From a candidate division WOR-1 bacterium RIFOXYB2_FULL_37_13 (GTDB taxonomy: Bacteria; Margulisbacteria; WOR-1; XYC2-FULL-46-14; XYC2-FULL-37-10): a stretch of 49,244 nt of DNA. The notes beneath the pieces are model-generated. The model ran no database searches. It had not been told where the DNA came from and worked only from the letters and a program-made list of their open reading frames with translations. How positions within the stretch are numbered: the stretch's first letter is position 1; each line of letters starts with the position of its first letter. The stretch lies in assembly GCA_001771535.1 (NCBI GenBank), contig MEUB01000013.1, forward strand, positions 4,595-53,838, read 5' to 3'. Position numbers and translations under genes: made by a program. Positions 4,325 to 46,083 of the stretch are shown here, in pieces.

Positions 4325-4450
4325 AAATTATTTCTACACAAGAATTTATTAAAAAACTAAAATCTCTTTAAATTGAAAGCTATATCTTAAAATGGTATAA
4401 TCCTATAAGTAATAGCCTATGTCTCTTTTTCAATGTATTTTCAAGGAGAT
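4325..4450. repeat. Direct repeat copy 1 (126 bp) flanking the DUF2281/PIN cassette
   Basis: This stretch matches 5134-5259 at 122 of 126 positions; the differences are transitions at 4386, 4418, 4435 and 4442. It contains the last 14 codons of the PIN toxin gene as a non-functional 3' fragment, then a promoter and an AAGGAG site. Here the fragment has no gene in front of it; in copy 2 the same bases are the true end of the toxin gene. Confidence 0.95.
4373..4401 (+). promoter_or_regulatory. Promoter of the toxin-antitoxin operon, inside repeat copy 1
   Basis: TTGAAA (4373-4378), a 17-base spacer and TATAAT (4396-4401) form a near-consensus sigma-70-type promoter. It is the only good promoter seen upstream of the antitoxin and it is a duplicate of the promoter before the sugar-binding lipoprotein. 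Confidence 0.75.
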
Positions 4451-4771: not shown

Positions 4772-5180
4772 GGTTGTCTTTGACACTAATGTTTTTTTAA
4801 GGGCATTAATTAATCCTCACGGTATAAATTCCCAGTTGATTCTATCTTCAGATAAGTATAAATTATTCCTTTCCATGGAAATAATCGATGAAATTCTTGA
4901 TGTTTTATCTCGCTCATCGTTGAGAAAAAAATACAATCAAATTAAAGATGTCGATGTCCGAGAGATATTAAAAGTCATTTCTGATGCGGAAATAATTGAA
5001 CCAAAGATGAAAATTGATATATGCAGGGATATTGATGACAATAAGTTTTTGGAATGCTCAGTTTCAGGGGCTGCCGATTATTTAGTCTCTGCTGATAAAG
5101 ATTTGCTTGATTTGGTTGAATATAAGGGTGTCAAAATTATTTCTACACAAGAATTTATTAAAAAACTAAAATCTCTTTAA
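4764..5180 (+). CDS. PIN-domain toxin (COG1569-type putative RNase)
   Basis: 138 aa with the PIN nuclease acidic residues: Asp7 in VVFDTNVFL, the glutamate in MEIIDEIL, and the aspartates in DIDDNKFLEC and SADKDLLDL. The family members are Mg-dependent RNases held in check by the upstream antitoxin. The arrangement (small charged protein first, 8-base overlap) supports a type II module. The last 47 bases of the gene belong to a 126-bp direct repeat whose other copy lies before the antitoxin, so the whole cassette is flanked. A paralogous PIN protein is encoded at 21235-21636; both share the ending pattern (V/I)(I/V)S(T/V)Q(E/D)F(I/L)KK. Confidence 0.88.
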   Translation: MLKVVFDTNVFLRALINPHGINSQLILSSDKYKLFLSMEIIDEILDVLSRSSLRKKYNQIKDVDVREILKVISDAEIIEPKMKIDICRDIDDNKFLECSVSGAADYLVSADKDLLDLVEYKGVKIISTQEFIKKLKSL

Positions 5181-5259
5181 ATTGAAAGCTATATTTTAAA
5201 ATGGTATAATCCTATAAGTAATAGCCCATGTCTCTTTTTCAATATATTTTTAAGGAGAT
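5134..5259. repeat. Direct repeat copy 2 (126 bp)
   Basis: It is 97% identical to 4325-4450 at an offset of 809 bp. It covers the PIN gene 3' end plus the promoter and ribosome-binding site of the sugar-binding lipoprotein. Confidence 0.95.
5182..5210 (+). promoter_or_regulatory. Promoter of the sugar-binding lipoprotein gene
   Basis: TTGAAA (5182-5187), 17 bases, TATAAT (5205-5210). AAGGAG at 5252-5257 follows, 6 bases before the ATG at 5264. The promoter begins just after the toxin stop codon. Confidence 0.75.
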
Positions 5260-6610: not shown

Positions 6611-6631
6611 TGTACACTGTACACTGTAAAC
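6611..6631. repeat. Heptamer-period array upstream of glmS
   Basis: Three adjoining 7-base units (TGTACAC twice, then TGTAAAC). It fills most of the 37-base gap between the lipoprotein stop and the glmS ATG. Its reverse complement matches units of the array inside rluD (45695-45722). Confidence 0.7.
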
Positions 6632-6641
6632 TTATTATATT

Positions 6642-8481: not shown

Positions 8482-8523
8482 TTGACATTTGACATTGGAT
8501 ATTGGTCATTGGACATTGTATAA
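8482..8523. repeat. Heptamer-period array forming the GH42 promoter
   Basis: Six 7-base units in register (TTGACAT twice, then TGGATAT, TGGTCAT, TGGACAT and TGTATAA). It starts one base after the glmS stop codon and ends inside the -10 box. The same family occurs at 12814-12848, 22130-22157 and 45917-45958. Confidence 0.85.
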
Positions 8524-8530: not shown

Positions 8531-10381
8531 ATGCAATTTGGAGTAACTTATTATCCTGATCAATGGCCGCGTGAAACGTGGGATAAAGAGTTTTCAAAAA
8601 TAAAAGAGATAGGCTTTTCTGTTGTCCGTTTTGCTGAGATGGCGTGGGATCTAATTCAGCCAAAAGAAAATAAGTGGGACTTTAAATGGCTCGACCGAGC
8701 TTTAAGTCTTTGTGAAAAATATGACCTAAAAGTTTTGCTTGGAATTCCCGTAGCCCAGGCTCCACAATGGCTTGTTAAAAAACACCCCCAAGTGCTTCAT
8801 GTCGGAAATGATGGATATATTCATCCAGAATTTGGCCCTCGCCCAAATGCTTGCCGTGATAATAAAATCTTACAAAAATATGCCGAGGAACTGACCCGCA
8901 AAATGGCGAAACGATATGCGAAACATCCAGCTCTTTACATGTGGCAAGTAGACAATGAGCCAAATTATCCGCCACTTGATTTAGCCGACAACAGCCGTGA
9001 TTTTTGCCATTGCGAATCGACCAAAAAAGTCTTTGTAGAATGGGCAAAAAAGAAGTATAAGACAATTGAAAATCTCAATGAAAAATGGGGAACAAAATTT
9101 TGGGCGGGGACATTTTCTTGTTTTGATGAAATAACAACGCCGAGAGTTGGCATGTGGGATGCGGGAAATCCCCATATTTATCTTGATTGGATGAGGTTTA
9201 AGTCAGAGAATCTTTCAAAGTGGCTGAAAAAATTAAAAATGATTGTTAAGTATTATGATGATAAGCATAAAGTTGGAACAAATAATTTTACAAGTATTGT
9301 AAATAGGATAGTTGATCATACGGTTGTTGCAGATAAAATGGACTTTTTTGGTTGGGACATTTATCCAAAAGGGACGGAGAACTCATTGGAGTCACTTGCT
9401 CAAATTGCCGACTATTGGCGAGGCGTTTGCTCCTCATCCGGTGCGGAGTTTATTGTTTCAGAATTACAGGGAGGGCCGAATGTGAGATGGGGGAATGGGA
9501 AGTGGGTTGTGGGTAGTGAGATGAGGGAGTGGGTTGATCTTTTGATGAATCACGGGGCGCAAATGATCCTTTTCCACAATTGGAAACCGCCTCTTTTTGG
9601 ATCAGAGACAGGCGGATTTGGCATCCTCCGCCCCGACGGCGAACCAACAGAAAGATATTTTGCGATAAAAGAGATAATTGATGACTGCAACCGAAGGGAC
9701 GCGCGTAAGGACGCGATTAATCGCGTCCCCACAGACCAAGTGGTCCCCACAGACAACCAGATTGCTGTCTACTATTCCCGTCAATCGGACATACAAACCT
9801 TCCAGGAAGAAGGGTTGCAAAGGTCTGCTCCTCCCAGTTGGTTTTCTGGTCGTGGGGATTTGGGGTTGTTTTACGGGAATAATTCAATTGTCGGAGCATA
9901 TCGGTTGGCATATGATAAAAACATACAAACCTCTTTTGTTTTTGATAAAGACATAGAAGAAGAAAATCTTAATTGTAAAATCTTATTATTGGCAAATCCT
10001 TATCTTTTAAGCAGAAAACAATTTGAAAACATTAAAAAATTTGTCGAAAACGGCGGCACTCTCATTTCCGAATGCCGCTTTGGGTTGAAAGATGAAAATG
10101 CTTATCTTTACGAAAAACCTTTGATTTCCGAGCTTTTGGGTGTGGAGCATTTTTATACAGAGATAGTAGGAGGGACTGTCAAGGTTGACGGGAAAAATAT
10201 TTCGGGGTTTAGGGATGTTTTGAGCGTAAAAGATAAAGAGATAAAAATCCTCAAGAATTTTGAGGACGGACACCCCGCTCTTATGGAAAAAAAACTTGGA
10301 ACAGGTAAAATTGTTTATGCCGCGTTCAGCTTGTTTTCAAACATTTTAAAATTCGGGAACCAGACTTTTATACAGATTTAA
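8531..10381 (+). CDS. GH42 family beta-galactosidase
   Basis: 616 aa from MQFGVTYYPDQW, the conserved start of GH42 enzymes, which hydrolyse terminal beta-galactosides. The in-frame extension to 8489 is rejected because it reads through the promoter repeat. The TIM barrel has the acid/base Glu143 in VDNEPN and the nucleophile Glu311 in SELQGG, with NFTSIVNR and DFFGWDIYP between. HNWKPPLFGSETGGFG matches the family's trimer and active-site region. The C-terminal part holds a glutamine-amidotransferase-like fold (domain B, GGTLISECRFG) and a terminal strand region. Two unusual inserts lie in the gene: a G-rich heptamer array (9482-9537) and a palindromic element (9697-9757). The frame stays open. 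GH94 follows on the same strand. Confidence 0.93.
   Translation: MQFGVTYYPDQWPRETWDKEFSKIKEIGFSVVRFAEMAWDLIQPKENKWDFKWLDRALSLCEKYDLKVLLGIPVAQAPQWLVKKHPQVLHVGNDGYIHPEFGPRPNACRDNKILQKYAEELTRKMAKRYAKHPALYMWQVDNEPNYPPLDLADNSRDFCHCESTKKVFVEWAKKKYKTIENLNEKWGTKFWAGTFSCFDEITTPRVGMWDAGNPHIYLDWMRFKSENLSKWLKKLKMIVKYYDDKHKVGTNNFTSIVNRIVDHTVVADKMDFFGWDIYPKGTENSLESLAQIADYWRGVCSSSGAEFIVSELQGGPNVRWGNGKWVVGSEMREWVDLLMNHGAQMILFHNWKPPLFGSETGGFGILRPDGEPTERYFAIKEIIDDCNRRDARKDAINRVPTDQVVPTDNQIAVYYSRQSDIQTFQEEGLQRSAPPSWFSGRGDLGLFYGNNSIVGAYRLAYDKNIQTSFVFDKDIEEENLNCKILLLANPYLLSRKQFENIKKFVENGGTLISECRFGLKDENAYLYEKPLISELLGVEHFYTEIVGGTVKVDGKNISGFRDVLSVKDKEIKILKNFEDGHPALMEKKLGTGKIVYAAFSLFSNILKFGNQTFIQI
9482..9537. repeat. 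G-rich heptamer-period array inside the GH42 gene
   Basis: About eight 7-base units with one slipped base (for example TGGGAAG, TGGGTTG and TGGGTAG). It encodes the segment around RWGNGKWVVGSEMREW just after nucleophile Glu311, at a surface loop position of the barrel. The reading frame is kept. Confidence 0.7.
9697..9757. repeat. REP-like palindromic insert inside the GH42 gene
   Basis: A perfect 20-bp palindrome (9709-9728, half-site GGACGCGATT) is preceded by another GGACGCG at 9697 and followed by CCCCACAGAC repeated at 9727-9736 and 9745-9754, with a small hairpin (GACCA/TGGTC) between. It is more GC-rich than its surroundings and translates to ARKDAINRVPTDQVVPTD, a linker between the catalytic barrel and the next domain. 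It looks like a small mobile palindromic repeat that landed in frame. Confidence 0.75.
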
Positions 10382-10466
10382 TTATTGAATAAATTTCTTT
10401 TAGCCCCCCTTCGCAAAACAGCGTAAAAATGATATTATTTATTAAGGAAAGAGAGGAAAAGTTTAA

Positions 10467-24250: not shown

Positions 24251-24322
<72 letters not shown>

Positions 24323-24323
<1 letters not shown>

Positions 24324-42489: not shown

Positions 42490-42558
42490 AAAGTAGAGAA
42501 TGGCAAGTGGTGCGGGTGGCTGTGTTATAAGTTATTAGTTATTAGTGATAAGTTATAC
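42481..42558. repeat. Heptamer-period arrays between the flavin reductase gene and tRNA-Leu
   Basis: Two families in succession. First AGAAAGT (twice) with related units over 42481-42501, decaying to 42523. Then five units in register (GTTATAA, GTTATTA twice, GTGATAA, GTTATAC) from 42524 to 42558, ending at the base before the tRNA. Confidence 0.85.
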
Positions 42559-42642
42559 GGGCGAGTGGCGGAACTGGCAGACGCACATGACTTAGGATCA
42601 TGCGGGCTAATCCCCTTGGAGGTTCAAGTCCTCTCTCGCCCA
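42559..42642 (+). tRNA. tRNA-Leu (anticodon TAG)
   Basis: Acceptor GGGCGAG pairs with CTCGCCC, discriminator A. The anticodon stem CATGA/TCATG encloses CTTAGGA with anticodon TAG. A long variable arm (GCGGGCTAATCCCC region) is typical of class II tRNA-Leu. T loop GGTTCAAGTC. No CCA is encoded. Confidence 0.93.
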
Positions 42643-42646
42643 TAAT

Positions 42647-42702
42647 AGCTTATAGCTTATAGCTTATAGTTTATGGCTTATGGGGAACATCTTATGGCTT
42701 GA
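42647..42702. repeat. Heptamer-period array after tRNA-Leu
   Basis: Eight units in register: AGCTTAT three times, then AGTTTAT, GGCTTAT, GGGGAAC, ATCTTAT and GGCTTGA. It begins 5 bases after the tRNA. Confidence 0.85.
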
Positions 42703-42730: not shown

Positions 42731-42751
42731 GCTATAGGCTATAAGCTATAC
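42731..42751. repeat. Heptamer-period array before tRNA-Gly
   Basis: Three units (GCTATAG, GCTATAA, GCTATAC) ending 2 bases before tRNA-Gly; a TATAAT lies just upstream at 42715-42720. Confidence 0.75.
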
Positions 42752-42753
42752 AT

Positions 42754-42826
42754 GCGGGAGTAGCTCAGTTGGTAGAGCGCAACCTTGCCAAGGTTGAGGT
42801 CGCGAGTTCGAGACTCGTCTCCCGCT
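42754..42826 (+). tRNA. tRNA-Gly (anticodon GCC)
   Basis: Acceptor GCGGGAG pairs with CTCCCGC. Anticodon stem CAACC/GGTTG with loop TTGCCAA gives GCC. D arm TAGCTCAGTTGGTAGAGC and T loop GTTCGAGAC are normal. No CCA is encoded. Confidence 0.95.
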
Positions 42827-45045: not shown

Positions 45046-45093
45046 GGTTTATTGCCAGGGATTAGTTGATAGCTTATAATAGTAGGACTTTTG

Positions 45094-46083
45094 ATGCGCT
45101 ATTTAATAAAAGAAGTAAATTGCAATAAACGATTGGATGTTTTTGTCTCATCCTTGGGAATAGGCCTTTCGCGATCTTACGCCCATCATTTGATAAACGG
45201 CGGGAATATTTTAGCCAATAATAAAAAGGTAAAACCTTCATATAAAGTAAAACTTGGCGATGAGGTTGAAATCAACCTTCCTCCTTCCATTGAATTAAAA
45301 GCAATTCCTGAAAAAATCCCTTTAAAAGTTATTTATGAGGACAGCAATCTTATTGTCATAAACAAGCCGAGGGGGATGGTTGTTCATCCCGCGGCTGGAA
45401 ATTATACAGGAACGCTTGTCAATGCCTTGTTGGCTCATTGTAAAGATTTGTCGGGAATTGGGGGTGTTTTACGTCCGGGGATTGTTCATCGACTGGATAA
45501 GGATACTTCAGGCCTTATAGTTGCGGCCAAAAATGACGAAGCTCATCAATCGTTGAGCAAGCAGTTTAAAGAGCATGCCGTCAAAAAGGTTTATGTCGCG
45601 CTGGCTTTTGGCTGGCCTAAAAAAGACAAGGAGACAATAGAAGAGCCAATTGGAAGGCATCCTGTGCATCGCAAAAAGATGGCAGTTGTAAAGAGTGAAC
45701 AGTTTACAGTTAACAGTGTACAGGAAAAAAAAAGAAAGTTAAAAGCTAGAGAGGCGGTTACTCATTATAGTGTTATAGATAGATTTACTGATGAAGAAGG
45801 GAATAAGTATTCATTGCTTGAGCTTAATATTGAAACCGGCCGTACTCATCAGATCCGCGTCCATTTAAGTCATATAGGGCATTCGATCGTGGGAGATGCA
45901 GTTTATGGATTGGGGAAATGTCGAATGTCGAATGTCCAATGTCAAATTAAAGGTCAATTACTTCATGCGAAACTTTTGGGGTTTGTTCATCCGTCAACTG
46001 GTAAATATGTTGAATTTCGGGCAGAGATTCCTGATGACATGAAAAACGTTCTTGATCTACTCAAGCAAACAAAGAATATATAA
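45094..46083 (+). CDS. RluD/RluC family 23S rRNA pseudouridine synthase with repeat inserts
   Basis: 329 aa from MRYLIKEVNC; TATAAT is at 45075-45080. An S4 RNA-binding domain (about 15-65; DVFVSSLGIGLSRSYAHHLINGGNILAN) precedes the synthase domain with VINKPRGMVVHPAAG and the catalytic Asp in HRLDKDTSGLIVAAK. LNIETGRTHQIRVHLSHIGHSIVGD is the other signature. Two short segments do not fit the family: SEQFTVNSVQEKKRK and KCRMSNVQCQIKGQ. Both are encoded by heptamer arrays. The frame is intact, so the enzyme is probably active. The exact uridines cannot be assigned. Confidence 0.95.
   Translation: MRYLIKEVNCNKRLDVFVSSLGIGLSRSYAHHLINGGNILANNKKVKPSYKVKLGDEVEINLPPSIELKAIPEKIPLKVIYEDSNLIVINKPRGMVVHPAAGNYTGTLVNALLAHCKDLSGIGGVLRPGIVHRLDKDTSGLIVAAKNDEAHQSLSKQFKEHAVKKVYVALAFGWPKKDKETIEEPIGRHPVHRKKMAVVKSEQFTVNSVQEKKRKLKAREAVTHYSVIDRFTDEEGNKYSLLELNIETGRTHQIRVHLSHIGHSIVGDAVYGLGKCRMSNVQCQIKGQLLHAKLLGFVHPSTGKYVEFRAEIPDDMKNVLDLLKQTKNI
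45695..45722. repeat. Heptamer-period array inside rluD-type gene (first)
   Basis: Four units in register: GTGAACA, GTTTACA, GTTAACA, GTGTACA. It encodes SEQFTVNSVQ in frame. Reverse complements of the units match the array before glmS. Confidence 0.85.
45917..45958. repeat. Heptamer-period array inside rluD-type gene (second)
   Basis: Six units: AATGTCG twice, AATGTCC, AATGTCA, AATTAAA, GGTCAAT. It encodes CRMSNVQCQIKGQ in frame. On the opposite strand these are GGACATT-type units, the family of the GH42 promoter array. Confidence 0.85.

Follow-up and report, generated by a model that had tools for sequence, protein, structure and literature searches.

Tandem arrays of seven-nucleotide units, typically about 31 bp long (4-5 units), are scattered through genomes of the bacterial class WOR-1 and recur in frame within loops of conserved enzymes. 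Each genome spells its arrays with a repertoire of its own, and where both orientations can be translated, the more hydrophilic and turn-prone reading prevails. We put a probability of roughly 55% on the reading that these arrays spread by copying or overwriting, with selection keeping those that preserve frame and fold. Two of the arrays lie in an rluD-type gene of candidate division WOR-1 bacterium RIFOXYB2_FULL_37_13 (the source genome; 1.79 Mb in 71 contigs), within a stretch of 49,244 nucleotides that is referred to here as the window.

Two heptamer arrays in an rluD-type gene

The following features define this locus:

45091..46083, + strand: rluD-type 23S rRNA pseudouridine synthase gene, assigned by profile, domain and fold matches
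45688..45723, + strand: heptamer array 1, consensus GTKWACA, encoding VKSEQFTVNSVQ (residues 200-211)
45917..45947, + strand: heptamer array 2, AATGTCN x 4.4, encoding KCRMSNVQCQI (residues 276-286)
45948..45958, + strand: non-array segment, encoding the KGQL that the alignment shows to be conserved in the family

The open reading frame (45091-46083) encodes 330 amino acids when counted from TTG, with an ATG at 45094. Its product belongs to the RluA/RluD family, scoring 300 bits against the curated profile TIGR00005 (cut-off, 192.7). It contains the Pfam domains PF00849 and PF01479, retains an intact catalytic GIVHRLDKDTSGL motif with HRLDKDTSG present, and has a modelled fold matching that of E. 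coli RluD (2ist, E 5.8e-32). The score against PRK11180, the equivalog for RluD proper, is 238 bits and falls below the cut-off of 351; judged from these matches, the product is RluD-type and not proven RluD. The profile, the Pfam domains and the motif bear out the earlier note, which had described an RluD-type enzyme with an intact catalytic core. The gene is the sole copy in the source genome—the second match consists of an S4 domain only.

The core of array 1 comprises four units (GTGAACA GTTTACA GTTAACA GTGTACA) at 45695-45722, exactly as first described, and is preceded on its 5' side by a weaker fifth unit, GTAAAGA, which extends the period-7 stretch to 45688-45723 (score 11.5). Array 2 reads AATGTCG AATGTCG AATGTCC AATGTCA AAT (score 19) and is placed by TRF at 45916-45947. 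Six heptamers spanning 45917-45958 had been proposed; the array in fact ends at 45947 after 4.4 units, and the supposed fifth and sixth units, AATTAAA and GGTCAAT, are not repeats and encode KGQL, which is conserved in nearly all relatives. The idea that the segments alien to the family coincide with the arrays therefore stands for the array-encoded residues, which are absent from homologues, and fails for the KGQL part. Neither array contains GGG or CCC.

Loop 1 of the product is 33 nt longer than in G001, the nearest relative without an array; loop 2 exceeds its G001 counterpart by 6 nt and the class norm by approximately 15 nt. These gains replace the earlier estimate of inserts of about 28 and 42 bases with small adjustments. 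Since the net gain of loop 2 is small, array 2 must mostly have replaced native sequence.

When the ORF was dinucleotide-shuffled, a score of 11.5 was reached in 2 of 2000 draws and a score of 19 in none of 2000. Shuffling the codons while leaving the protein unchanged yielded 215/2000 and 4/2000, respectively, although this control is not an independent null because the peptide is itself array-encoded. Chance, codon bias or assembly error has a negligible probability as an explanation for the arrays: array 1, if judged solely by its own modest score (11.5; reached in 11% of the codon-shuffled null), would fit it, yet chance is excluded by the dinucleotide nulls together with the other-period controls, the outside lineages and the independent genomes presented below, and against assembly error, the frames are intact and an array of 31 bp fits within an ordinary sequencing read.

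Placement of the arrays in loops of the RluD-type protein

The alignment, which comprised the source protein, 29 relatives and 23 proteins from outside, places both array stretches in length-variable parts, and the array-encoded residues were found in none of the RluD homologues. The inserts are absent from the nearest homologues, as the earlier note had anticipated: both loops of G001 (same family, 62% identical) are free of heptamer arrays, and in G002 (63% identical) loop 1 carries another heptamer, GGGTCAA, and loop 2 the palindrome CCCTCGACTTCGCTCGGG. Matches to the pattern of this palindrome number 55, spread over 19 of 57 genomes, and a control pattern gave none. Across the 30 genomes, the array 1 loop holds a period-7 array in eight, each with a unit of its own—GTTAACA in the source genome, GGGTCAA in G002, GAAATAC in G030, CGAACTC in G022, GAAATTC in G013, AAGGGTC in G021, GGGATTA in G027 and GAACGAA in G016—and five of these pass the score used in the four-family survey described below.

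The AlphaFold2 model of the RluD-type protein has a mean pLDDT of 87, with most of the chain outside the array loops above 85. Residues 200-211, encoded by array 1, lie in a loop preceding strand 223-233, with pLDDT <50 at residues 204-216. Those of array 2 (276-286) occupy the loop 262-290 between helix 252-261 and strand 291-299, where pLDDT blocks are 64-66. Both arrays are thus situated in low-confidence loops of an otherwise confident model, in line with the surface-loop placement initially suggested, and we infer that the two loops are permissive sites for arrays. Loops of IleS, TrpA and TsaD, as well as arrays inside ValS, MurE and other genes, support the further claim that the repeats invade genes and that loops tolerate them; the data point to an invasion of genes far more general than the earlier note saw.

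Period-7 arrays across the class

In 433 kb of the source genome we detected 29 strong period-7 arrays, as compared with 0-5 for each other period between 4 and 13 and none in shuffles; the density is somewhat overstated here, since some of these contigs were chosen for their AATGTC arrays. The stretches from relatives, picked around rluD, held 26 arrays in 276 kb. Taken together, 709 kb of class DNA contained 55 period-7 arrays (about one per 13 kb), against a single array in 232 kb from other, non-class members of the phylum and none in the 143 kb scanned around 23 RluD loci from outside lineages. Being dispersed tandem 7-nt units in several copies, the arrays qualify as heptameric STRR, or long simple sequence repeats. 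Cyanobacterial heptameric STRR arrays also occur inside rnpB; no period-7 array was present in rnpB of the 30 relatives or in the source-genome stretch carrying rnpB.

Long ORFs containing arrays encode ValS, MurE, TsaD, an alternative GlmU, a radical-SAM protein and an IolG-like fusion in the source genome, and IleS, TrpA, CoaX, QueA, Tgt, agmatinase and HycI in relatives. Our cross-genome survey covered four families (RluD, IleS, TrpA and TsaD; 30 genomes each), with a three-dimensional model for RluD alone. It returned 88 period-7 arrays, compared with 10 for periods 4, 5, 8, 10, 11 and 13 summed and none in shuffles. These arrays concentrate, in frame, at approximately ten recurrent sites; their units vary from genome to genome, and at least half of the relatives have no array in the loop concerned. 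Array-bearing loops are 0-8 residues longer than array-free ones, and an array encodes about ten residues, indicating that the arrays partly replace native loop sequence.

Recurrence at the same site could in principle stem from a single entry in the class ancestor, followed by inheritance, with units that drifted or were homogenised. Arrays at one site are indeed more alike across genomes than arrays at different sites (excess 0.32-0.49 vs 0.09-0.12), with 8-13% of same-site arrays from different genomes sharing a unit, above chance, and IleS site 3 shows nearly one length and similar peptides (KFEIRNPKSEI) in about ten genomes. Vertical inheritance, therefore, explains part of the pattern, as at IleS site 3. 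As a general account, however, an ancient insertion is improbable. Most sites carry quite different units in sister genomes, and presence is patchy, changing state 3-9 times per site on a quick tree built from conserved columns—a count that includes decay below the detection score. The MAGs may also be incomplete. Same-genus pairs with unrelated units or empty sites were seen in part, and palindromic elements substitute for heptamers at one site in close relatives, as in the same-genus sisters G011 and G014, which have CCCCAGT heptamers and a palindrome, respectively, at IleS site 6. Finally, unit sharing between different sites within a genome (15.6%, see below) is at least as frequent as sharing at the same site between genomes.

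Palindromic elements of at least three kinds were observed in frame at heptamer loops in IleS, TsaD, TrpA and RluD of relatives: CCCTCGACTNCGCTCGGG; ACCCCCTCT...AGAGGGGGT, in both orientations; and GGTTTCC...GCGAC-GTCGC (e.g., loci L157, L169, L160, L143, L152, L154, L175, L191, L224 and L003). They are possibly elements of this class akin to the Rickettsia palindromic elements (RPE). At residues ~128-140 of TrpA in class genomes (loci L172-L201), the array occupies the position of a variable segment of similar length in ordinary TrpA.

Uniform length and genome-specific units

The length distribution has a sharp peak at 30-34 bp, a range that takes in 55 of 88 coding arrays and 49 of 75 from the genome stretches; a single array measures 28 bp, none measures 29 bp and few exceed 40 bp. 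The units themselves follow the genome: a unit is shared (at least 5.5 of 7) by 15.6% of same-genome, different-site pairs versus 3.0% within a family and 1.9% between families, a 5-8-fold excess over the rate between different genomes (permutation P ~0.001). In the source genome, an AATGTCC/AATTTCC group spans RluD, IleS, TsaD, ValS, MurE and the IolG-like fusion, with AATGTCN also in many spacers, and a CAGTGTA/GTTAACA group spans RluD, TsaD and the radical-SAM gene. The weak pattern that the units have in common (3.84 bits vs 3.39 +/- 0.07 in shuffles) carries no weight, as shared ancestry of units may explain it.

Both features bear on local slippage, according to which each array is born de novo from the sequence at its site and then filtered for frame and fold, with no copying between sites. 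This explanation requires no extra machinery, and the degenerate neighbouring units (88% identical) fit old, mutating arrays. Moreover, in many bacteria heptamers outnumber all other long simple repeats, and slippage has been proposed for them (PMC4679880, PMC4692102). Slippage predicts broad, roughly geometric lengths, however, and arrays simulated with a geometric copy number and passed through the same detector spread widely, unlike the observed peak. Nor does it predict that unrelated sites of one genome share units, although a common bias of the slipping polymerase could be an alternative source of such sharing. On balance, we regard local slippage as unlikely, and we infer that arrays were copied into their targets, or overwrote them, rather than having grown locally.

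Two structural explanations were tried and rejected. The four-unit preference of the G-rich heptamers of Xanthomonas and Nostoc has been tied to G-quadruplexes (PMC4692102); 114 of the 140 arrays studied here lack GGG/CCC and show a length peak identical to that of the 26 that have it, so a quadruplex account of a four-unit preference cannot hold in this class. Hairpin-driven growth fares no better, the heptamer units being no richer in palindromes than shuffled units. Loss of mismatch repair was likewise discarded, as MutS and MutL are present in nearly all class and non-class genomes. The MutL profile match is broken at ~111-132, with little DNA between the halves, in G000, G001, G002, G008, G011, G013, G014, G016, G021-G024 and G028-G030, reflecting a segment of the N-terminal domain that is shortened or diverged only in some class genomes.

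A proposed copying model and probable selection on the encoded peptide

On the copying-or-overwriting reading, existing arrays or a genome-specific template would be copied into new places, most simply via template switching or repair synthesis with variable deletion of the target. New arrays would land everywhere, and purifying selection would purge those that break frames, bring in stops or disturb folds—leaving as survivors arrays that abut tRNA genes or stop codons, or that sit in flexible loops. We also entertain, more tentatively, that a dedicated, class-specific machine may write or copy fixed-size arrays (~31 bp, 4-5 units, three helical turns) from a genome-specific unit repertoire, continually rewriting flexible loops of essential enzymes over evolutionary time.

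Selection on the outcome can be read from the 63 arrays that are translatable without stops in both orientations: in 44 of them the sense strand gives the more hydrophilic peptide (P 0.002), and in 50 the one more prone to turns (P 3e-6). Array peptides are enriched in Ser, Gln, Asn, Pro and Arg and depleted in Trp, Tyr, Ala and Gly. This pattern is consistent with arrays that land in many places and persist wherever they do no damage, and the inserted peptide probably does nothing specific.

Relation to known repeats

To our knowledge, heptamer repeats of bacteria have been known for decades with their mechanism unproven, slippage and G-quadruplexes being the standing ideas. The class offers many independent arrays of one length, with varied units and a within-gene record, for which these two ideas appear insufficient—a matter that strain comparisons can test. 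The even size and genome-specific spelling call for a new mechanism. RPEs are palindromes of ~100-150 bp with conserved sequence that enter protein genes in frame at tolerated surface sites and give rise to new peptide. The class arrays resemble them as short repeat DNA placed in frame in genes, where it creates new peptide, but differ in being tandem heptamers of ~31 bp with free unit sequence and no long palindromic consensus.

Bacterial heptamer simple repeats and their proposed origin by slippage have been described before (PMC4679880, PMC4692102; also PMC6749651), including GGGGA(T/C)T in Nostoc, GGGNATC in Xanthomonas and TAACTGA in Beggiatoaceae (PMC4692102, PMC4679880). The cyanobacterial STRRs are similar in their heptamer unit, dispersal, frequent occurrence as about four units and proximity to stop codons, and about a third of the Nostoc heptamer repeats are non-intergenic (PMC4692102, PMC4679880). 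The same papers depict one unit type per genome, scarcity in genes and four units as G-quadruplexes (PMC4692102, PMC4679880), whereas the class arrays display many units free of G runs, a single length and repeated placement in loops of conserved enzymes. The tandem repeats of archaeal Borgs are genome-specific, lie in ORFs in about half of the cases and form flexible protein segments, and all in-ORF units are divisible by three (PMC9879509). The class unit of seven departs from this, so that the frame depends on total array length plus flanking change. Small dispersed repeats of Nostoc and REPINs are comparable as very small mobile or dispersed elements without genes of their own (PMC3116915); REPINs, however, are hairpins linked to RAYT transposases, and the class heptamer units show no palindrome excess. 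In the open-licence literature, we found no prior report of heptamer arrays as recurring in-frame occupants of enzyme loops. Repeat DNA with a unit that is not a multiple of three represents a route for renewing loops of essential proteins, and alignments, trees and structural studies can misread such loops as adaptive insertions.

Arrays in spacers and beside tRNA genes

Further arrays in the window, none assigned to a strand, lie close to stop codons and tRNA genes:

6611..6632: intergenic heptamer array TGTACAC, unit group of array 1, 6 nt past a stop codon
8482..8518: heptamer array GACATTG (the AATGTCC type on the other strand), 1 nt past a stop codon
24216..24247: heptamer array GTTATNN, ending 3 nt before the tRNA gene 24251-24323
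42524..42557: heptamer array GTTATAA, ending 1 nt before the tRNA gene 42559-42642
42645..42683: heptamer array ATAGCTT, starting 2 nt after the tRNA gene 42559-42642
42731..42750: weak heptamer array GCTATAR, 3 nt before the tRNA gene 42754-42826

The array at 8482..8518 uses the same unit family as array 2. Of the 61 arrays located in 764 kb, 39 have more than half of their length within candidate ORFs; these ORFs, called mechanically, make up 93% of the bases, so that spacers are array-enriched per base, yet most arrays are in genes. Many spacer arrays start 1-6 nt past stop codons or end 1-4 nt from tRNA genes. This positioning, along with the tight length of about three helical turns whatever the unit, could mean that the arrays are useful in themselves, either as 31-bp DNA that binds protein or forms a structure, or through their peptide as a linker or RNA-contact loop. 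Such a function is very improbable, given that units vary freely between genomes, that at least half of the relatives have no array at the corresponding loop, that the G-quadruplex reading fails and that palindromes are not enriched in the units.

Intergenic arrays wedged between tRNA genes or close against one, leaving 1-4 nt to the gene end, were seen in the window and at locus L086 (9274-9305 and 9328-9359), and arrays adjoining tRNA genes often have stop-rich units such as GTTATAA. Locus L086 additionally contains three near-identical 32-bp arrays within 560 bp (9824-9855, 10300-10331 and 10352-10383), with almost the same order of variant units, which suggests whole-array duplication. The window also holds a 126-nt direct repeat (4325-4450 and 5134-5259), 97% identical, with its copies 809 nt apart.
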